From assembly GCF_008035925.1 (NCBI RefSeq), contig NZ_CP036264.1, positions 3,220,443 through 3,284,442 of the forward strand: a stretch of 64,000 bases of DNA, read 5' to 3'. The stretch is from Stieleria maiorica. Lineage in GTDB: Bacteria; Planctomycetota; Planctomycetia; Pirellulales; Pirellulaceae. The notes beneath the pieces were generated by a model. It was given only the letters and a program-made list of their open reading frames with translations, did not search any database and was not told the DNA's origin. Below, in pieces: positions 6,417 through 16,297 of the stretch. Position numbers and translations under genes: made by a program. How positions within the stretch are numbered: position 1 is the first letter of the stretch; the number at the start of each line of letters is the position of its first letter.

Positions 6417-6702
6417 TGCATCTCCTTCACCCGAGTTGCGACAACCGATTTTTCTACGAATACTAGCGGAGGTCGTCACGGGTTTCGGCTTTTCCCGGGT
6501 GAACTGCTGCGAGGCGGAAGACTTGGCGGCTTCCGCTACGGGTTTAGGGACAAAGCCTCGTTGTTTTGCCGCCCGAAGCGTTACAATCGCGCAATCTTCC
6601 TTCGGGTTCAGGTCAGCGGTGACGATGCCGATCAATCAGTAACGGTTCGCTTCGTTCGGCACCCACATGCTCAATTCGGTTCCACTCATTTTCCCATTTC
6701 CG
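6417..6702. other. Divergent intergenic region
   Basis: This 286-base interval lies between the broken nucleoside hydrolase (minus) and the phospholipase D-like gene (plus). A minus-strand frame runs through it into the hydrolase, but its residues look random and the hydrolase has its own ribosome site, so I see no extra gene. The plus gene has no strong Shine-Dalgarno sequence, so its exact start is open. Confidence 0.5.
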
Positions 6703-8058
6703 ATGGTCACACGATCGGTGCGCACCGCCACGCTGGCGTTGCTGGTGGCGATCGTATTGCCGATCGCGAAAGACGCGAACGCCAGCAGTCTTCGTGTTCT
6801 CGACGGGAAACGGGAGTCGCTTCAAGCACGCGTCGACCTGATCCAGCAAGCGCAACACAGCATCGACCTATCGTATTACGCGATCGATACCGACGAAGTG
6901 CCCATCGCACTCCTCGAACTGCTGCGACAAGCATCGCTGCGGGGCGTGCGTGTCCGTATCCTGGTCGACGGTCTCAAATCACGACTGCCGGCCAAGTTTG
7001 AGCAGTATCTGCAGCGGAATCGGGTCCAGGTCCGGGTTTACCACCCGCTTCATCAAGGCAACCCGAGCTGGCTGAATCGACGATTGCATTCCAAGTTGAT
7101 GGTCGTCGACGCCCAGCGTGCCGTGATCGGAAGCAGCAACCTGGAGAACGAGCATTTCGAGTTGAAACCGGGGCGCGGTTTTGTCGATTGCGACGCGATC
7201 GTCGCCGGCCCAATCGCCCAACAGACACAAGCCTATTTCGACTGGTTGTGGGCGACGCCCGATGTCCGACCAGCACCGCCCCGAGATTCGCTCGGGTTGG
7301 ACGTCCTGCGATCCCGCCCTTTCGGCCGCAGCGACTGGAAGAATGCGTGGCGCGACGCAAAAACCGATCGTGACTACCAACGGCTACTCGATCGTGCCTT
7401 GCAGCATGTGGTTTGCCAAGGCGGCGTGCACTTGGATCCGCAGCGCGATTGGATCGCCGAAGCGAGCCATGGGATCCAGATGCGACTGCTGCATGATCGT
7501 TCGTCAGACAAGTCAGAGCATCATGTCAATCGTCAGATCGTTCGAATGATCGATCGGGCCCGGTCGTCCGTGCTGATCGAATCACCCTACCCCGCGTTCG
7601 ATCGTTCGATTCGATCCGCCATCTCGCGTGCCAGGGCGCGTGGCGTGTGCGTGACGATTTTGACCAATTCGTTGGACACGACCGATCAATTGAACGTGTA
7701 TGCCGCTTACCAGAATCACAAACGCGGGTTGCTGCGTGAGGGGGTCCAGCTGCGAGAATACGCCGGCCGGGACACGTTGCACTCCAAGACGCTGTTGGTC
7801 GACGACAGTTCGTGGATGCTGGGCAGCTACAACTTTGACGCCCGTTCCAACCTATGGAATCTTGAATTGTGCTTGGTGTCGGATGATCCCGCCGGTGCCG
7901 CTCAGTTGTGGTCCAATCTGCAACCGAGACTTGTCAATTCGACGCCAATCAGGTCCGGCACGCTGATCCTGCCGGTCGGACAAGACGCCGCGATTTCCAA
8001 ACGAAGCCGATTGATGATCAAACGCAGCGTGATCGAACTTTATCGCGGTCTGCTGTAG
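6703..8058 (+). CDS. Secreted phospholipase D-like protein with two HKD motifs
   Basis: The 451-residue start at 6703 gives a clean signal peptide (MVTRSVRTATLALLVAIVLP...ANA); an ATG at 6667 would add 12 residues. Two PLD half-domains follow, each with an HxKx4D motif: LHSKLMVVD (His about 129) with downstream GSSNLENEHF, and LHSKTLLVD (His about 360) with GSYNFDARS. This is the arrangement of cardiolipin synthases and related periplasmic phosphatidyltransferases or nucleases. Unlike ClsA it has no N-terminal membrane pair. The substrate (phospholipid or nucleic acid) cannot be decided from sequence. The 3' end overlaps the convergent phosphatase gene by 19 bases. Confidence 0.9.
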   Translation: MVTRSVRTATLALLVAIVLPIAKDANASSLRVLDGKRESLQARVDLIQQAQHSIDLSYYAIDTDEVPIALLELLRQASLRGVRVRILVDGLKSRLPAKFEQYLQRNRVQVRVYHPLHQGNPSWLNRRLHSKLMVVDAQRAVIGSSNLENEHFELKPGRGFVDCDAIVAGPIAQQTQAYFDWLWATPDVRPAPPRDSLGLDVLRSRPFGRSDWKNAWRDAKTDRDYQRLLDRALQHVVCQGGVHLDPQRDWIAEASHGIQMRLLHDRSSDKSEHHVNRQIVRMIDRARSSVLIESPYPAFDRSIRSAISRARARGVCVTILTNSLDTTDQLNVYAAYQNHKRGLLREGVQLREYAGRDTLHSKTLLVDDSSWMLGSYNFDARSNLWNLELCLVSDDPAGAAQLWSNLQPRLVNSTPIRSGTLILPVGQDAAISKRSRLMIKRSVIELYRGLL

Positions 8059-8854: not shown

Positions 8855-10963
8855 ATGCCAGTCGTCACCTATGGTGGAAGTGATGAAGAAGGATTCGAAT
8901 TGGTCGAGAGTCGAGAGCTGATCGCGATCCGCACGCGTTCCAATCGGTCTTTAAGAACAAAGTCGACCGTTTCGGATCCGGTGGAGGGACAGTTGAGCGG
9001 TTGCGAGCTGGTGATGCGGTTTCCCGAAGCCGGCGTGGAGGTTTATCGCGTGCCGAAAGGGGAGAAGAAGTCGGCGATGCAAAACCGAAAACGTGCGCTG
9101 CGTCAGCACCCGGACGTGCGTTTCGCCGGCGGCGTGCTGATCGACAAAGATGCGCAAGAGCCGGTGATTTACACGGAGAATCTGTTCATCAAGTTCATCG
9201 ACAGTCTGGATGCCGGCGAGTGCGAACGGATCATCCGTGAGGCGAGTTTGATTCTCAAGGAGAAGCTCGGATTCGGAATCAATAGCTACTTTGTGCAAGC
9301 GACCGAGGGGACGGGGCAGCGTGTGTTTGACTTGGCATTGGAGTTATTGGCGCGGCCGGAAGTGCAGTACTGCCACCCGGAACTGGTTCGCCCCCGGGAT
9401 CGAAAATCGATCGGTTCGCAGCAATGGCATCTCGGTCCGGTCACGCACAATGGACTCTCGGTCAGCAATCATGCGCACGTGCTGATCGCGCACGAATTGA
9501 CGCGCGGCGACGGGGTGATGATCGCCGTCATCGATGACGGTTTTGACATCGATCACGCGGAGTTTTCGAGCCCCGGAAAGATCGTGGCGCCGTTTGATGC
9601 CGTCAGCCAGACTTCCGATCCGCGTCCCCGTGACCCCGACCCCGACTATCCCGATGACCACGGAACGGCCTGCGCGGGTGTCGCCTGTGCGAGCGGAATC
9701 GACGGCGCGATCGGGGTCGCGCCGGAGGCGCGGTTGATGCCGATTCGATTGATGGCCAATTTGGGATCGATGGCTGAAGCGAAAGCGTTTCAGTGGGCCG
9801 CCGACCACGGTGCCGACGTGATCTCTTGCAGTTGGGGGCCCGCCGACGGGCCTTGGTATTTGCCGAATCATTCGCTGCACGATCGCGTGCATCATCTGCC
9901 GACGAGTACGCGGATGGCCATCGATTATGCGTTGTCGACAGGCCGCGGCGGTCTCGGCACCCCGGTCCTTTTCGCCGCCGGCAATGGCAATGAGAGCGTC
10001 GAGAACGACGGCTACGCGAGCTACGAACCGGTGATCGCGGTTGCCGCCTGCAACGATCGGGGAACGCGGAGCGTCTACAGCGACTATGGACCGTCGATTT
10101 GGTGCTGCTTTCCCAGCAACGATTTCGAATTTGTCGCAGAGCAGCATCCGGCCCCCATCACCCCCGGAATCTGGACGACCGATCGTTCCGGAGTTCACGG
10201 GTACAACCCCGGCAGCCCCCATGCCGGCGATGCGATCGGAAACTACACCAATTCGTTCGGCGGCACCTCAAGCGCCTGCCCCGGTGTTGCGGGGGTCGTC
10301 GCCTTGATGCTGTCGGCGAATCCCGATTTGACTCCGCTTGAGATCAAAGACTTGTTGCGGCGTTCGAGCGACGCCGTCGATCCGGAAGGCGGACAATACG
10401 ATGCCGACGGGCACAGCGAGTCGTACGGATACGGTCGAGTCAATGCACGTCGTGCCGTGGAATTGGCCGTCCCAACGCCTGCGCCGCGACTGGAGATTGT
10501 TCGTGACTTCTACACCTCGATTCCCGATCGCGGCACCGCAAACGTCGCGATTGAAATCCAGGATCCGGGATCGATTGAATCGATCGACGTGCTGTTTGAC
10601 ATCGAACACAGCTATGTCGGCGACCTTGTTGTCACACTCAAGCCGCCGCGTGGTGCCGGATCAAAGGTGGTCCTGCACGACCGTCAGGGGACATCTGCGA
10701 GCGGAATTTCAAAATACTGCCGCATGCAGGCCACTCCCGGACTCAGTCGTCTGGCGGGAAAGAAGTGCCGTGGCAACTGGACGCTTGAGGTCGAGGACCA
10801 AGCCGTCCGCGACGTCGGCACCATCGTCCGTTTCGGAATGGTCATCACGCTTCAGTCCACGGCGCAACCGGGCGCTCTGGCCCGCGTTTCCAAACGCAAC
10901 ACGACTCGGTTGGTCCGGCGTCCGGTGTCGCTGGCACGACGGCAACGAGGCTACGGTTCCTGA
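8855..10963 (+). CDS. Subtilisin-family serine protease with P-domain
   Basis: The start at 8855 is supported by GAGAGG a few bases upstream. Residues 1-180 are a propeptide-like region without a recognisable signal sequence. The S8 catalytic domain has VIAVIDDGFDIDH (Asp227), DDHGTACAGVA (His269) and GGTSSACPGVA (Ser472). Residues about 545-680 form a proprotein-convertase P-domain (IEHSYVGDLVVTLKPP ... CRGNWTLEVED). The order propeptide-S8-P matches kexin-like and bacterial proprotein-convertase-like proteases. The missing signal peptide is odd for the family: either export uses another route or the true start is elsewhere. The M6 metalloprotease gene follows 62 bases downstream on the same strand. 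Confidence 0.92.
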   Translation: MPVVTYGGSDEEGFELVESRELIAIRTRSNRSLRTKSTVSDPVEGQLSGCELVMRFPEAGVEVYRVPKGEKKSAMQNRKRALRQHPDVRFAGGVLIDKDAQEPVIYTENLFIKFIDSLDAGECERIIREASLILKEKLGFGINSYFVQATEGTGQRVFDLALELLARPEVQYCHPELVRPRDRKSIGSQQWHLGPVTHNGLSVSNHAHVLIAHELTRGDGVMIAVIDDGFDIDHAEFSSPGKIVAPFDAVSQTSDPRPRDPDPDYPDDHGTACAGVACASGIDGAIGVAPEARLMPIRLMANLGSMAEAKAFQWAADHGADVISCSWGPADGPWYLPNHSLHDRVHHLPTSTRMAIDYALSTGRGGLGTPVLFAAGNGNESVENDGYASYEPVIAVAACNDRGTRSVYSDYGPSIWCCFPSNDFEFVAEQHPAPITPGIWTTDRSGVHGYNPGSPHAGDAIGNYTNSFGGTSSACPGVAGVVALMLSANPDLTPLEIKDLLRRSSDAVDPEGGQYDADGHSESYGYGRVNARRAVELAVPTPAPRLEIVRDFYTSIPDRGTANVAIEIQDPGSIESIDVLFDIEHSYVGDLVVTLKPPRGAGSKVVLHDRQGTSASGISKYCRMQATPGLSRLAGKKCRGNWTLEVEDQAVRDVGTIVRFGMVITLQSTAQPGALARVSKRNTTRLVRRPVSLARRQRGYGS

Positions 10964-11025
10964 CGCATTCGTGGATCGCTCACGTGTTTCGCCCCTTCTC
11001 TTTCATCGCCTAAGGAGTACACACC

Positions 11026-13278
11026 ATGTGGCTATGTCGAATCGGTTGCACATTTCTCGTCTTCTGGATCGCGACGGATCAACGTGCGATCGGGAATCTG
11101 GCAAGCCCGTTCCCGGTGGAGGTCACGCAACCGTCGGGTGAGACGATCCAGTTGTACATTCGCGGTAACGAAAAGTTGAACTGGTATGAGTATGTGCCGG
11201 AGGCCAGGAATATCCAGCGCGGGGTCGCGATGAGCCCGGCTGACGCGACGCTCGCAGCCACTCCCGGATACACCGTCATCAAGGACGCCGATGGGCGTTA
11301 CGTGTACGCTCAGCTGGATGCCGATTCCAATTGGGTACCCACCGATGTCGCCGTCGGAGCGGAGGTGCCACAAAACCTTCAACGGCGTTTGATTCCGCCG
11401 CCGGAAAACGTTCAGCGGATGATTCGTGCCCGATTGCCGGAGCAAAACATCCCGTCCCGGGCCGCGGCGCCTCTAGGAACGGTCAAAAACCTGGTCGTGT
11501 TATTGAGATTCGCAGATCATACCGGCCGAACGTTGCCTTCGAAGGCGGATTACGAACAACTCTTCAATGCGCAATCCCCGGTTCCCAATCTGGCACCGAC
11601 AGGGAGCGTCAAGATGTTCTACCAGGAAAACTCGTACGCCAAGATGAACCTGGAGTCGACGGTGGTCGACTGGGTAACGCTGCCGAAAAAGGAAGCTTAC
11701 TATGCCAACGGCCAAAGTGGACTGACGTCGCGGATTTGGGAAGCGCTCCGTGATGGGCTTGATCTCGTCCGTGCGAGCGGTTCGGTCGACTTTGCCGATT
11801 TCGACAACGAGATCAATCAGAACGGCGGCAAGGGAGACGGTTGGATTGACGCGATCACCTTCGTTCATTCCGGGTATGCCGCCGAGTTCGGCGGGGTTGC
11901 CGGCGGGGCCGACATGGATGATCGAATTTGGTCGCATCGCTGGACAATGACTCCCTGGACAGATCCGGCGTCCGGTGTGAAGGTGAGCAACTACAATATC
12001 AATCCCGGAATTTGGGGAACCAGCGGAACCGCGATCGGACGCATCGGCGTGATTTGTCACGAGCTCGGGCATTTCTTCGGTTTACCTGACCTCTACGACT
12101 ACAGCGGCAAAGGCGAGGGCTGTGGATCGTGGTGCTTGATGGCGAACAGTTGGGGCTTTGATGGCACCCAATTTCGTCCGCCGCACATGTCAGCGTGGTG
12201 CAAACTCTTTCTCAGTTGGAATTCCGCCCAACTGCTCTCCACACCTGGCACCTACGAAGTCGAAGCGACCTCACTGCCGGGGGCAAACATCTATCGAATC
12301 AACTACCCCAGCGGTCCTTTGAGTGAGTACCTGCTGATCGAAAACCGTCAAGCGGTTGGTCGCTACGACGGGGGGATACCGGCCGGAACGGGAGGCCAGG
12401 GGGGACTGGCGATCTGGCACATTGACGATTCGGTGCCGGAAAATGATCAACCCGGGTATCCCGGGTCTGATGGATTCCCTGCCGACCACTATAAAGTCGG
12501 GCTGATCCAGGCCGACGGACTTTGGGAGCTGGAGAAGGGACTGAACCGTGGCAACGCGAACGACGTTTTCCGACAGGGGCACAATGATTCGCTTACCGCA
12601 ACGACCGACCCGAATTCAAACTCGTTTACCGGCGTCCAGCTACCTCCGATCAAAAACATCTCGGCGTCCAGTTCCAAGATGTCCTTTCAATATGGCGACG
12701 CCCCGATCATCGTCGACGACACGGTCCTCGCGGGCGTGGTGAATGTCGAAGTACCGACAAGTCATTCCGTCAACTTCAGTCCCGACGGAAAGGCCGCCAC
12801 GATTCTATTGGATCGGTTGGTTAGCTATGCCTACGGAGATGCCGCAGAGGTCAAGCACGCGACGTTTGTGCTGCCGCTTAAAGACGCCTCCGAAAATGCG
12901 ACGGTGGCGATCCAGGTCCGCGGGTACTACAGCACCGACGACGGTTCGGTCGGACGGGTGATTCTGTCCGCCAATGGCAGCGCGTCGATCATTGATCCCA
13001 AGGCCAGTGCCGCACCGCAGGCATCCAGGGCGATGGAGCCAGATGCAAAGGGTGCCAAGCAAGCGAACCACCGAGCGACAGCGGAAAGAATCCGCCGCGG
13101 TAACAATCCGAAACCATCCAATGTGACCGGGGACGACTTCTTCTACGAGTCGTCGACATCACTGGTTGTGGATGAAAAGCTGCCGATCACGATCGTGCTG
13201 CAAACCGAGCGGCTGACTTCGGATTCCGTCGGGGCCTATCTGGTCATCGATTCCATCGATGTGGAGATAAAACCCTAG
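11026..13278 (+). CDS. Secreted M6-family metalloprotease (immune inhibitor A-like)
   Basis: The start at 11026 is preceded by AAGGAG. A signal peptide (MWLCRIGCTFLVFWIATDQR) leads into a 750-residue protein. The zinc motif is HELGHFFGLPDLYD (His345, Glu346, His349), the extended form typical of M6 peptidases; the following CGSWCLMANSWG contains the conserved methionine-turn region. The segment AIWHIDDSVPEND is also usual for M6 proteins. About 190 C-terminal residues form a beta-rich region of unknown role. It sits between a subtilisin and a cytochrome/catalase fusion on the same strand. The product is probably a secreted, broadly acting protease. Confidence 0.92.
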   Translation: MWLCRIGCTFLVFWIATDQRAIGNLASPFPVEVTQPSGETIQLYIRGNEKLNWYEYVPEARNIQRGVAMSPADATLAATPGYTVIKDADGRYVYAQLDADSNWVPTDVAVGAEVPQNLQRRLIPPPENVQRMIRARLPEQNIPSRAAAPLGTVKNLVVLLRFADHTGRTLPSKADYEQLFNAQSPVPNLAPTGSVKMFYQENSYAKMNLESTVVDWVTLPKKEAYYANGQSGLTSRIWEALRDGLDLVRASGSVDFADFDNEINQNGGKGDGWIDAITFVHSGYAAEFGGVAGGADMDDRIWSHRWTMTPWTDPASGVKVSNYNINPGIWGTSGTAIGRIGVICHELGHFFGLPDLYDYSGKGEGCGSWCLMANSWGFDGTQFRPPHMSAWCKLFLSWNSAQLLSTPGTYEVEATSLPGANIYRINYPSGPLSEYLLIENRQAVGRYDGGIPAGTGGQGGLAIWHIDDSVPENDQPGYPGSDGFPADHYKVGLIQADGLWELEKGLNRGNANDVFRQGHNDSLTATTDPNSNSFTGVQLPPIKNISASSSKMSFQYGDAPIIVDDTVLAGVVNVEVPTSHSVNFSPDGKAATILLDRLVSYAYGDAAEVKHATFVLPLKDASENATVAIQVRGYYSTDDGSVGRVILSANGSASIIDPKASAAPQASRAMEPDAKGAKQANHRATAERIRRGNNPKPSNVTGDDFFYESSTSLVVDEKLPITIVLQTERLTSDSVGAYLVIDSIDVEIKP

Positions 13279-13402: not shown

Positions 13403-16297
13403 ATGAGATTCCTGATCTGTTGTGGGCTGGTCGTGCTGTCCGTTCTTGGCAACGCACAAGACGAACCGATCTATCTGGATCAAGGTTGGGATGCCGAGCA
13501 GCGCGAGGAATTTTACTTTACCGCCCAAGGCTCTCAACTGATCCCCTTCAAGTGGTTCCTTCAACTCGAGCGAGCGGATTCGGAAGAGCTCTTTCGGCAC
13601 AATTCAAATCTGTCGCGATTCGGGTTTATCACAACGGAGCCTTCGAAACGAAATCCCGAAGGGTTGCCGGTCGGTTTCGTCCGAGACGGAGTGGATCCGG
13701 TCGCCAGCGACTTTATGGGACTCAAGTCCGTTCAACGATCCGTCATTGCGAAAGCGACTCGTTTCGAAGTGAAGAAGGCCTATTTGGGCGCCGGTTTTGA
13801 CGAAAAATATTACCCACGTGAACAAGAATCGTGGTTCGGGTTTACCTGCGCCGCGTGCCACACTCACCAAATCCGATACCAGGGCGCAACCGTACGGATC
13901 GACGGTGGATCCACGCAAGCCGACGTCGAGTCCTTTCTACGTGAATTGGGGCGAGCGTTACAGGCAACCTGTGAGGACGATCAAAAGCTGGAGCGTTTTG
14001 CGATCGCCGTCGGACGCCGGGAATACGACTTGCACGAATTCAAAAAGGAGGTCCAACAGATCTCCTCGGCCGTCAACCAATTGGTTCAAAGGAACAAGGC
14101 CAAGCACCCCTACGGATACGCACGCCTGGACGCATTCGGCGCGATTTTGAACGCCGTCTGTGAAACCGCGTTGAGCGAGCCGGAAAACCATCGTTCATCC
14201 GATGCGCCGGTCAGTTATCCATCGTTGTGGAACACGCCCGAATACAGCTACGTGCAATGGAATGCGTCGGCCCCGTCGGCCGAAGCACGCAACGTCGGGG
14301 AGGTGTTGGGCGTCTTCGGAACCTACACGCTTGCTGCGGGACCGACGCAATTCGATTCGACGGTGCGTCTTGGCAACCTTGTCCGGCTGGAACACGAGTT
14401 AATCAAGAACCTGAAATCACCAGACTGGCCGGAAGCAGTCTTGGGACCGCTAGATGACGCTAAGGTTGCAGCCGGGAGGATTCTTTTCAGGAAGAATTGT
14501 GAGTCGTGTCATGCGGTGCGCGTGGATGGCGATTTTGTGCGCAATGACCAGGGCCGAATTCCGGTGCGTTCCAACACATTGACGGAAATTCAAACGGACT
14601 CCCAGTTCTTGAAGAACTTGAATCCGCAGGACACGATCTTGGCCGGCGGTCTGCAAGATCTTCTCGGTGGTGCGATCCGTGTGCCACGCGCCAGCATGTT
14701 AGGGGCGGCGGTTCGTGAGATCATCTCGAACCGATCCCGCGCTGAAATGATTGACGTTCGGCCACTTCAGCCCGGCCCACAAGACCCTCCGCACCCGGAC
14801 GGTGTCGGCAGTGGATACATCGCCCGACCATTGGAAGGGATTTGGGCAAGTGCTCCCTACTTTCACAATGGCAGTGTCCCGAATTTGTACGAGACATTGC
14901 TGCCCGCATCGGAACGGTCGAGCACGTTTTGGGTCGGCAATACGGAGTTTGATTCGGTGAACGTCGGATTCGTCACCGATCGGTCGGAGATCGGTTCAGA
15001 GTTCCGTGTCTGTGATCAGACCGGTCAGCCGATCGTGGGAAACTCCAACGCGGGGCATGAGGGGCACGGGGCCAACGAGTCGGAAGGTTTCACCCAAACG
15101 TTTGAAAACGGTCAATGGCGCGACTTTAGCGACGAGGAGCGGTATGCACTGGTCGAATACATGAAATCGCTTTCGCCGAATGAGACGGACGTGCCAAAGT
15201 CACCCGCGTTCGAGCAGATTCCCGACGGCGAGCAGGAGATGATCAAGAACATTGTCGATGCGACCGTCACGCAAATGCGGGCGCGGTATGCCGACGGTGA
15301 TCGCATGCTTCGCAGCGTCCACCCGAAGGATCACGGTTGCGTGACCGCAAAGTTTGAAGTCCACCAGGATTTGCCCGAAGAATACCGGGTCGGGGTCTTT
15401 CAGCCGGGCGCCGTCTACGAGTGCTACATTCGCTTCTCCAACGCGGCCGTCCGGGTCGACCATGACTCGCGACGCGGTGCGGACGGAAACCCGGTTCATG
15501 GAAGCCGTGGGATGGCAATCAAGTTGGTCGGCGTTCACGGCGAGTCGCTGTTGCCACCGCATGGCTCGCTGACGCAAGACTTTTTGATGATCAACCAGCC
15601 CGTGTTTACGTTCGCCAATGTCGAAGACTATGAATTGTTGAGTACGGTTTTGGTGGAAAACAACGATGATCCACGTGCTTTCTTTGCAAAACGTTTTACG
15701 AGCGGAACCGACGAACAAAAAGCGAGGGCCGCACGAACAAAGCAATTGGTCGAACGGATTCAGGCAAATGAAGTCGGCGAAAACAGTGGTGCATTCTTTC
15801 CGCCTCCTGCGAGTCCGGTGGACAATCCGTACTTCAGCGCGGCGCCGTTCCTGTTCGGCCCGGACCGCGTCATGAAGTTTCGCGCGATGCCGGTTGGCCG
15901 CAGTAACGATGTTCCGAACGTCGATGATCCGAATTACTTGCGGACGGGATTGATCGCGCGTTTGTCCAAGCAATCGGTTGAATTCGACTTCGGAATACAG
16001 GTCCGCACCATCGGCCAAGTCGACCCAGCAACCGATATCGAAAACGCGTCGGTCGAGTGGAAGGACGACTTCGTGTCGGTCGCCCGAATCACGATTGCGC
16101 CCCAGAAATTCGATTCACCGGAGCAGCGGGTGCATTGTGAAAAGCTGTTCTTTTCGCCGTGGCACGGAGTTGCGGATCACCGGCCGATCGGAGGTATCAA
16201 TCGCCTGCGCAAAGCGGTCTACCTTGCTTCAGGGAAATTTCGCAATCTGCCGAAAGAACCGGCCTCCATTCCGACGGCTTGGTCGTCCGAGGAATAG
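13403..16297 (+). CDS. RoxA-like di-heme cytochrome c fused to a catalase-like domain
   Basis: The start at 13403 follows a GGGGG ribosome site and gives a signal peptide MRFLICCGLVVLSVLG; the frame is open 24 codons further up. Residues about 30-600 resemble di-heme cytochrome c peroxidase/RoxA-type proteins, with covalent heme motifs CAACH (about 149, in WFGFTCAACHTHQI) and CESCH (about 366). Residues about 620-960 resemble the catalase superfamily: GCVTAKFEV, YIRFSNAAVRVDHD and GSRGMAIKLVGV are the usual N-terminal heme-pocket strands. The protein could therefore bind three hemes: two c-type and one b-type. A periplasmic oxygenase or peroxidase is likely; the substrate is unknown. It lies downstream of two proteases on the same strand. 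Confidence 0.85.
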   Translation: MRFLICCGLVVLSVLGNAQDEPIYLDQGWDAEQREEFYFTAQGSQLIPFKWFLQLERADSEELFRHNSNLSRFGFITTEPSKRNPEGLPVGFVRDGVDPVASDFMGLKSVQRSVIAKATRFEVKKAYLGAGFDEKYYPREQESWFGFTCAACHTHQIRYQGATVRIDGGSTQADVESFLRELGRALQATCEDDQKLERFAIAVGRREYDLHEFKKEVQQISSAVNQLVQRNKAKHPYGYARLDAFGAILNAVCETALSEPENHRSSDAPVSYPSLWNTPEYSYVQWNASAPSAEARNVGEVLGVFGTYTLAAGPTQFDSTVRLGNLVRLEHELIKNLKSPDWPEAVLGPLDDAKVAAGRILFRKNCESCHAVRVDGDFVRNDQGRIPVRSNTLTEIQTDSQFLKNLNPQDTILAGGLQDLLGGAIRVPRASMLGAAVREIISNRSRAEMIDVRPLQPGPQDPPHPDGVGSGYIARPLEGIWASAPYFHNGSVPNLYETLLPASERSSTFWVGNTEFDSVNVGFVTDRSEIGSEFRVCDQTGQPIVGNSNAGHEGHGANESEGFTQTFENGQWRDFSDEERYALVEYMKSLSPNETDVPKSPAFEQIPDGEQEMIKNIVDATVTQMRARYADGDRMLRSVHPKDHGCVTAKFEVHQDLPEEYRVGVFQPGAVYECYIRFSNAAVRVDHDSRRGADGNPVHGSRGMAIKLVGVHGESLLPPHGSLTQDFLMINQPVFTFANVEDYELLSTVLVENNDDPRAFFAKRFTSGTDEQKARAARTKQLVERIQANEVGENSGAFFPPPASPVDNPYFSAAPFLFGPDRVMKFRAMPVGRSNDVPNVDDPNYLRTGLIARLSKQSVEFDFGIQVRTIGQVDPATDIENASVEWKDDFVSVARITIAPQKFDSPEQRVHCEKLFFSPWHGVADHRPIGGINRLRKAVYLASGKFRNLPKEPASIPTAWSSEE

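Follow-up and report, generated by a model that had tools for sequence, protein, structure and literature searches.

In the planctomycete Stieleria maiorica, a single gene (positions 13403-16297, forward strand, of the 64,000-nucleotide stretch of contig NZ_CP036264.1 analysed here, referred to as the window) encodes a 964-residue protein in which a di-heme CytoC_perox domain is followed by a catalase-fold domain. We tentatively favour the view that this protein is an exported two-step oxidation enzyme, oxygenation by the di-heme half being followed by conversion of the peroxide by the catalase-like half. The di-heme half would add O2 to, or cleave, a lipid double bond, probably that of an unsaturated fatty acid, and the (hydro)peroxide so formed would be converted by the catalase-like half acting as a lyase, an isomerase, a peroxidase or by dismutation. 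Such an enzyme would be analogous to the coral allene oxide synthase (AOS)-lipoxygenase or to the 10S-dioxygenase/lyase pair of Nostoc, with a di-heme c-type enzyme in charge of the first step. Arguing for this view are the adjacency of the two halves, encoded side by side in 22 of the 29 loci with a close C-half relative, the existence of two groups of fusions and the coral AOS as best structural match of the C-terminal half, together with COX-like and AOS-like neighbours, nearby lipase genes and the precedents of Nostoc and PA2077.

The reading frame starts with an ATG at 13403, ends with a stop codon at 16295-16297 and contains no internal stop, in agreement with the single chain proposed by a previous sequence-only reading of this DNA. 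That reading also proposed export, and the protein indeed looks exported, residues 1-18 (13403-13456) resembling by eye a Sec signal peptide. Both c-type heme motifs it had named are present, CAACH at residues 149-153 (13847-13861) and CESCH at residues 366-370 (14498-14512), and the domain boundary expected near residue 610 was found at about residues 590-609. These features, and all those of the window given below, lie on the forward strand.

The N-terminal half (residues 29-589, 13487-15169) is a full-length member of the NCBIfam family NF040606 CytoC_perox, whose name gives no hint of a catalase part (510.5 bits for a cut-off of 150, E 7e-153, model positions 1-524 of 524, the match ending at residue 589). 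A RoxA-like character of this region, as formerly claimed, is further supported by a match to Pfam RoxA-like_Cyt-c (residues 471-509), the two heme motifs and the MauG/RoxA motif PYFHNGSVP (residues 485-493, 14855-14881), whose letters are the same around H517 of RoxA according to the available text of PMC6311187. The best solved structure by sequence is RoxA 4b2n (profile A3 of the N-terminal half, E 3.8e-25), which itself has no catalase part; in this profile alignment, H552 (15056-15058) is the counterpart of RoxA H641, the second axial ligand of the C-terminal heme. H552 and both Cys and the His of each heme motif are invariant in a 20-row alignment. That F305 might correspond to RoxA F317, which lies close to the active heme, is a guess from spacing, in a region outside the 4b2n alignment. 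On the rubber oxygenase models of NCBIfam, this half scores 45.4 bits for RoxA (cut-off 1000), 48.2 for RoxB (cut-off 900) and 42.4 for RoxC (cut-off 900). As the RoxA and RoxB scores are far under the cut-offs, rubber cleavage is not indicated and, judged by these models, the protein is neither RoxA nor RoxB. These scores of only 42-48 bits and the weak structural match of this half speak against the two-step enzyme. Indeed, the predicted structure (pTM 0.82) has MauG chains as top match with a Z of 6.7 that lies within the range of common arrangements (rmsd 4.3, 226 residues aligned), and Foldseek gave no match under E 0.001. RoxA 4b2n is missing from the structural lists, where its absence is uninformative. 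Pfam CCP_MauG (PF03150) is not among the four families reported for the fusion protein at E <= 1, a search whose filters can drop weak matches.

The predicted model of the C-terminal half (about residues 609-951, 15227-16255) has a catalase fold, the best structural match being coral AOS 1u5u (VIA Z 24.4, rmsd 2.7, 275 residues aligned), with which true catalases tie. Among the matches listed, 50 catalase-fold entries reach Z 22.8-24.4; Foldseek gives an E value of 3.4e-11, and a PDB search with the family profile retrieves 3e4w together with coral AOS and catalases. The modelled domain resembles an oxylipin enzyme as closely as it does true catalases. Pfam Catalase (PF00199) gave no match in the fusion protein at E <= 1; it matches 18 of the 22 rows of the family alignment at that threshold (best 2.3e-10), the window's own row being without match. 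The catalase-superfamily domain claimed earlier is thus upheld by the predicted fold (Z 24) although PF00199 is silent, and neither the fold nor the heme-ligand Tyr, whose lack would have contradicted the claim, is missing.

Sequence alignment and motifs delineate a putative heme pocket made of Y940, H640, N731, R637, R677, R936 and R947. It comprises RSVH (residues 637-640, 15311-15322) with the heme Arg and the distal His, MINQP (residues 729-733, 15587-15601) with the distal Asn, and RKAVYLASGKFR (residues 936-947, 16208-16243) with the proximal Tyr Y940 flanked by R936 and R947. None of Arg637, Val639, Arg677, Asn731, Arg936, Tyr940 and Arg947 varies over the 22 rows, of which 21 retain His640. 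In coral AOS, R64, T66 and H67 correspond to RSVH (available text of PMC5617202) and the Tyr-to-Arg spacing of 7 between Y353 and R360 equals that of Y940/R947; the pocket residues are equal bar one, the Thr preceding the distal His. This Thr, typical of catalase-related AOS, is absent from all 22 rows in favour of the catalase-type Val639, which argues against the two-step enzyme. The coral AOS-lipoxygenase (1u5u, 3dy5) resembles the present protein in joining a catalase-fold domain to an oxygenase, but its partner is a lipoxygenase instead of a di-heme protein and its catalase part stands at the start of the chain. M. avium paratuberculosis has a catalase-related protein (3e4w, 3e4y) with the same fold (Z 23.7-23.9) and a similarly small size, but it is stand-alone and 22-23% identical to the C-terminal half over the aligned part.

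A survey of the fusion across genomes, advised by the sequence-only reading, identified three further single-frame fusions with the same domain order, which brings the number to four in three families, the window's included. One of them is only 37-38% identical to the window's protein, and the existence of these three led us to reject a chance fusion or a frame error. Trees reject the grouping of the four fusions as one clade (AU p 0.0025 and 0.012) and separate them into two groups, suggesting that the fusion probably arose twice. A candidate listed as one 1065-residue frame (G104) consists of two genes with an in-frame stop between them and was excluded; in three other loci (L049, L051 and L063) encoding long N-terminal stretches, no catalase part was found.

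Unfused, the two halves are often neighbours. All 44 loci retrieved carry the C-half search pattern, and the sample is therefore independent of the N-terminal half; where the C-half relative is at least 35% identical (29 loci), 22 loci have the pair as adjoining genes on the same strand. Twelve of the 22 paired genomes were searched whole, and the pair is adjacent in all 12 while the C-half gene is single-copy in 11. This pairing across unrelated bacteria suggests that both parts handle one oxidised product jointly and, since close relatives adjoin and the fusion probably occurred twice, we infer that the two halves serve one pathway. Remoter relatives of either half are mostly alone, which weighs against the two-step enzyme: several C-half matches (33-38%) and several di-heme matches were unpaired in the family and phylum searches, and eight genomes of the phylum gave a C-half match of 35-38% only. 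Also against it, in most unfused loci the di-heme protein bears an export signal and the catalase-like protein does not (by eye), so that unfused partners would occupy different compartments.

No conserved wider operon was found around the pair. Lipase genes (Lipase_3 or Tle1-like) lie near 3 of the 20 unfused pairs scanned and beside one fusion. The neighbour scan covered 118 proteins, 7 of 125 having been dropped as longer than 900 residues and loci L022 and L009 having given none; among the best 25 of 198 families, the neighbours are mostly unrelated to lipids. A control set of 51 proteins (one of 52 dropped) from 7 of 13 loci also contains alpha/beta hydrolases and FA_hydroxylase. Because of the 3 in 20 pairs and of the alpha/beta hydrolases in the control, the lipase link is suggestive, without statistical support; the non-lipid neighbours and the content of the control count against the two-step enzyme, as does the presence of peptidases instead of lipid enzymes beside the window's fusion.

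On plasmids, C-half relatives adjoin COX-like genes in three of the six distinct COX-like plasmid loci examined, in Paracoccus yeei, Methylobacterium currus and Ruegeria sp. In P. yeei, the COX-like gene matches COX-2 (E 3.7e-61) and has a YRWH site, and the C-half relative also adjoins a RoxA-like di-heme gene. Two features of this set speak against the two-step enzyme: P. yeei has a divergent di-heme protein (127 bits for a cut-off of 150; longest branch of the N tree), and the other three loci have a P450 or neither alongside; in R. etli and S. medicae, the COX-like gene adjoins a P450, not a catalase. The Ruegeria protein beside the COX-like gene belongs to the C-half family and the Acaryochloris one falls outside it; neither had a match in the PDB. 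The locus count was drawn from 12 plasmid records with 80% coverage, R. gallicum, a second Acaryochloris and Ruegeria conchae being left out, as were 15 weaker records. Remoter relatives are mostly unpaired on plasmids too, which again weighs against the two-step enzyme. Around the 10 plasmid regions chosen by the C-terminal half, neighbours are FdhF/YdeP (4), DyP (2), COX-like (2), a di-heme gene (2, one of them also with a COX-like gene) and an alpha/beta hydrolase (1); no annotated catalase was present near the di-heme gene in any of the eight plasmid regions chosen by N-half match. pNGR234a carries in a row a catalase-like gene, a frame resembling coral AOS (E 6.2e-13), a di-heme gene and one for a patatin-like lipase, the catalase gene being two genes from the di-heme gene. 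Over 84% of its length, the C-terminal half is 34.2% identical to this catalase-like protein (E 8e-38), which has Gln and Asp at the positions of Val639 and Asn731; from plasmid and annotation, we infer that the match is y4iL (cd08152).

Bacterial precedents for a dioxygenase working with a catalase-related protein, set beside the fusion by description, are the Nostoc 10S-dioxygenase with its catalase-related hydroperoxide lyase (available text of PMC13049297) and the Anabaena catalase-LOX fusion (available text of PMC11719350). Their first enzyme is COX-like or a lipoxygenase, not a di-heme protein, and a Nostoc-like gene pairing is seen in the P. yeei, M. currus and Ruegeria loci. As described in the available text of PMC4496055, PA2077 (10S-DOX) of P. 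aeruginosa makes a fatty-acid hydroperoxide that PA2078 (7,10-diol synthase) converts; both (FadCcp) resemble the N-terminal half in being RoxA-like di-heme proteins that are exported and carry the MauG motif, but the second enzyme is another di-heme protein and not a catalase. A more specific possibility, rated less probable than the two-step enzyme in general, is that of a separately evolved fused oxylipin synthase made of a di-heme c-type dioxygenase and a catalase-type hydroperoxide-converting domain, probably joined twice. Fused oxylipin synthases of the dioxygenase-P450 type exist in fungi. If true, this possibility would add a type beyond these and the catalase-lipoxygenases of corals and cyanobacteria, and y4iL-like proteins would include a widespread family of bacterial hydroperoxide lyases or isomerases whose dioxygenase partners come from two or more unrelated families.

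The main rival, which we consider unlikely, is a double cell-surface defence against peroxide, in which the di-heme half would reduce H2O2 with cytochrome electrons and the catalase half would dismutate it. The name of NF040606, di-heme-cytochrome C peroxidase, points that way, as do the catalase-type Val before the distal His and the retained distal Asn and Arg residues, the DyP peroxidases adjoining some C-half relatives, and the fusion of y4iL-like domains also to LodA-like proteins (available text of PMC4417212), a family of amino acid oxidases that release H2O2. A cytoplasmic catalase with a periplasmic peroxidase would moreover match the signal-peptide pattern of the unfused pairs. Such a scavenger is harder to reconcile with the COX-like and AOS-like genes adjoining other C-half relatives, with the silence of CCP_MauG on the fusion protein, and with RoxA, the best sequence-matched structure of the di-heme half, being reported without peroxidase activity (available text of PMC6311187).

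Maturation of a partner protein seems improbable: in a MauG-like manner, the di-heme half would oxidise residues of the partner with H2O2, the catalase half would set the peroxide level and peptidases would process the partner. Upstream of the fusion gene lie an S8 peptidase with a P domain (8855-10963) and an M6 peptidase (11026-13278), conserved in fusion locus L114 (80% and 71% identical genes, respectively), and Rhizobium plasmids likewise carry S8 and trypsin-like genes after the di-heme gene. However, BLAST found no S8/M6 counterparts beside the other two fusions (the G440 contig being merely 12 kb), and casual rather than systematic inspection noticed no conserved small substrate gene beside the pair. 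The MauG motif and the MauG chains heading the structural list fit this mechanism, but the motif is common to RoxA and the Z score is that of common arrangements. We give very little credence to a non-enzymatic catalase-like half, serving as a heme-binding or structural module on a di-heme oxidase; such catalase-fold proteins are small and remote, but the seven invariant residues listed above and the near invariance of His640 speak against this reading.

Both halves occur in several phyla, annotated as "di-heme-cytochrome C peroxidase" and "catalase family protein", and no tested function for either was found in the available text of the literature searched. The fusion and the gene pair link these two vaguely named families and suggest a testable substrate class. 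Confirmation of the two-step enzyme would provide a new architecture for making oxylipins, would give y4iL-like catalase folds a function, and would caution against reading such genes by default as oxidative-stress defence. Titles and abstract beginnings in the literature searched revealed no publication describing a di-heme protein combined with a catalase fold, in line with the earlier claim that the combination is unusual. The available text of PMC4417212 described in 2015 the fusion of y4iL-like catalase domains to LodA-like proteins; the same kind of domain is joined there to a redox enzyme, but this enzyme, LodA, is a quinoprotein that has the catalase part at its N-terminus. One LodA/GoxA gene with a y4iL-like fusion also turned up in the present analysis.

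The fusion gene occupies window positions 13403-16297 in one open frame and encodes a single chain of 964 residues, as the sequence-only reading had proposed. Its N-terminal half (N-half, residues 29-589) is a full-length match to the NCBIfam family CytoC_perox (510.5 bits against a cut-off of 150) and contains the heme motifs CAACH (residues 149-153) and CESCH (residues 366-370), a PYFHNGSVP motif (residues 485-493), and a match to Pfam RoxA-like_Cyt-c at residues 471-509, which bears out the two heme motifs in a RoxA-like region noticed in that reading. A profile built from 20 N-half relatives found RoxA (4b2n) at E 3.8e-25 and aligned H552 of the fusion with RoxA H641, given as an axial ligand of the C-terminal heme in a passage of a rubber oxygenase review (PMC6311187). 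Modelled alone with 20 rows, the N-half reached a pLDDT of 76.5 and a pTM of 0.82; structural matches to the model were weak (top, MauG, Z 6.7), Foldseek returned nothing under E 0.001, and the membership of the N-half in the family rests on sequence. In the window's own genome, no match to CytoC_perox other than the fusion exceeds the cut-off, and the C-terminal half (C-half, residues ~609-951) was not found as a separate copy.

AlphaFold modelled the whole chain with a mean pLDDT of 68.3, the C-half being mostly well predicted and much of the N-half poorly. The C-half matches coral allene oxide synthase (AOS, 1u5u) over 275 residues (VIA Z 24.4, rmsd 2.7), in a tie with catalases and 3e4y/3e4w (VIA Z 23.7-23.9). 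The C-half family profile likewise matches 3e4w (3.1e-07), coral AOS (1.6e-06) and catalases. R637, V639, R677, N731, R936, Y940, and R947 are invariant across the 22 family rows, and H640 is present in 21 of them, the row of locus L029 having Asp. Set against the coral AOS heme-pocket residues listed in part of a published account (R64, R102, R360, H67, T66, N137, and Y353; PMC5617202) and paired by motif and spacing, the C-half has one clear difference, a Val in place of Thr66. The proposed catalase-superfamily domain is thus upheld by the fold and by the invariant putative heme ligand Y940; at the level of HMMs it holds for the relatives, 18 of the 22 rows matching Pfam Catalase at E ≤ 1, but not for the fusion protein itself, for which the Pfam search did not report Catalase.

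Among 149 genomes of the family, the fusion was found in the window's own and in G013, and a second search, of 392 genomes from the phylum, added those of G452 (61% identical) and G440 (37-38%), one open frame each. In G104, both parts lie in the same frame as successive genes separated by a stop. Trees built from 27 N-half and 32 C-half sequences did not group the four fusions together, and holding them as one group was rejected with p-AU values of 0.0025 (C-half) and 0.0118 (N-half, the long row of L089, a Paracoccus yeei plasmid, left out), values that overstate certainty because of long branches, that of G440 included. Since the trees reject this grouping, two separate fusion events are probable. 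Coral AOS-LOX and Anabaena catalase-LOX are known cases in which a catalase-fold domain is joined to an oxygenase, and PMC4417212 describes LodA-like quinoproteins that carry a fused y4iL-like domain. We found no description of a di-heme partner in the literature searched, so that this partner appears new as far as these searches show, in agreement with the earlier statement that no enzyme of this kind was known to have been described.

The two parts also occur as neighboring unfused genes. A search for related loci returned 44, which can be read as a sample chosen by the C-half since all 44 contain its QDFLMINQ pattern; nine had no C-half match at the threshold applied. Where the C-half relative was at least 35% identical (29 loci), an N-half relative lay on the same strand within 1 kb in 22, an opposite-strand fragment was present in one, and six had none, some being cut by contig ends; below 35%, none of the six scored loci had an N-half relative. 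The pairs, in either gene order, occur in Methylococcales, Kiloniellales, Rhodospirillales, Microvirga, Planctomycetota, Nitrospinia, and a MAG labelled Bacteroidales. Twelve of the 22 paired genomes were searched whole: the pair was adjacent in all 12 and the C-half relative single in 11. Remoter relatives of both halves are mostly unpaired: eight genomes in the phylum show a C-half match (35-38%) and, among the matches listed, none to the N-half, and an annotated catalase gene is absent from all eight plasmid regions opened by the N-half. Separately, L005 (11083-12906), L006 (11043-12866), and L011 (10884-12737) carry, after the pair, a divergent second di-heme gene of 607-617 aa, its products in L005 and L011 scoring 130-132 bits, just below the CytoC_perox cut-off of 150.

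The C-half family has several partners, as neighbors differ among the ten plasmid regions opened by C-half matches: an FdhF/YdeP oxidoreductase adjoins the match in four, a DyP peroxidase in two (both also near an oleate hydratase), a cyclooxygenase-like (COX-like) gene in two, a di-heme gene in two, and an alpha/beta hydrolase in one. On pNGR234a, the symbiotic plasmid of S. fredii NGR234 (L076, 5110-12964), a catalase gene, a truncated AOS-like frame (232 aa, coral AOS at E 6.2e-13), a di-heme gene, and a patatin-like lipase gene (26.0 bits, below the cut-off of 27.7) occur together, with fragments of another di-heme gene upstream that resemble the third gene of L005, L006, and L011; S. fredii CCBAU 25509 retains the di-heme and patatin genes. 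The P. yeei plasmid (L089, 3040-7516) has a three-gene row of a divergent RoxA-like di-heme protein (127 bits against the CytoC_perox cut-off of 150), a catalase-like protein, and a COX-like peroxidase that matches COX-2 at E 3.7e-61 and carries YRWH. In Methylobacterium currus and Ruegeria sp., too, a COX-like gene adjoins the catalase-like gene. Genes of the Lipase_3 or Tle1-like kind are found close to L010, L012, and L019, a Tle1-like gene adjoins the G452 fusion, and a fatty-acid desaturase adjoins a di-heme gene in G311. On Agrobacterium and Roseomonas plasmids (L090, 1066-8112; L091, 1075-8112), a common gene order comprises oleate hydratase, acyl-CoA genes, a catalase family protein, and a DyP peroxidase. 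On plasmids of Rhizobium and Sinorhizobium (L126, 3712-6614; L127, 3712-6629), a COX-like peroxidase gene adjoins one for a cytochrome P450, which recalls fungal dioxygenase-P450 fusions.

Because the parts pair and the fusion recurs, the action of both halves on one pathway is well supported for close relatives. What that pathway might be is a more tentative matter, for which a two-step lipid conversion is the favored reading, at slightly less than even weight. The N-half would act as a dioxygenase, given its kinship to RoxA and the example of PA2077, a RoxA-like di-heme protein whose conversion of oleic acid to the 10-hydroperoxide needs both heme histidines, as stated in part of PMC4496055. 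The C-half would then convert the lipid peroxide, as suggested by its fold, the AOS- or COX-like neighbors of some relatives, and the coral and cyanobacterial precedents. Judged by eye, the di-heme protein of most unfused loci has a signal peptide, often lipoprotein-like, and the catalase-like protein mostly has none, so that unfused partners would not meet unless the product crosses the membrane, which argues against such a lipid route; both parts seem to be outside in the window's fusion, L030, and G104. The catalase-type Val keeps H2O2 possible as the C-half substrate; scavenging of peroxide is the main rival reading and the less likely of the two.

Directly upstream of the fusion and on its strand, an S8 peptidase with a P domain is followed by an M6 peptidase (8855-13278). 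Both adjoin the G013 fusion (L114) in the same order, with 80% and 71% identity, and BLAST found no counterparts beside the G452 and G440 fusions. S8 and trypsin-like genes also come after the di-heme gene on Rhizobium plasmids. In G502 (L118, 5287-19274), genes for an S8 peptidase, two caspase-like proteins, and a P450 separate the catalase-like gene from the di-heme gene, a distance of ~11 kb. The protein encoded at 6667-8058, ~5 kb upstream of the window's fusion, has by eye a signal-peptide-like start and two HxK-type motifs resembling those of phospholipase D.
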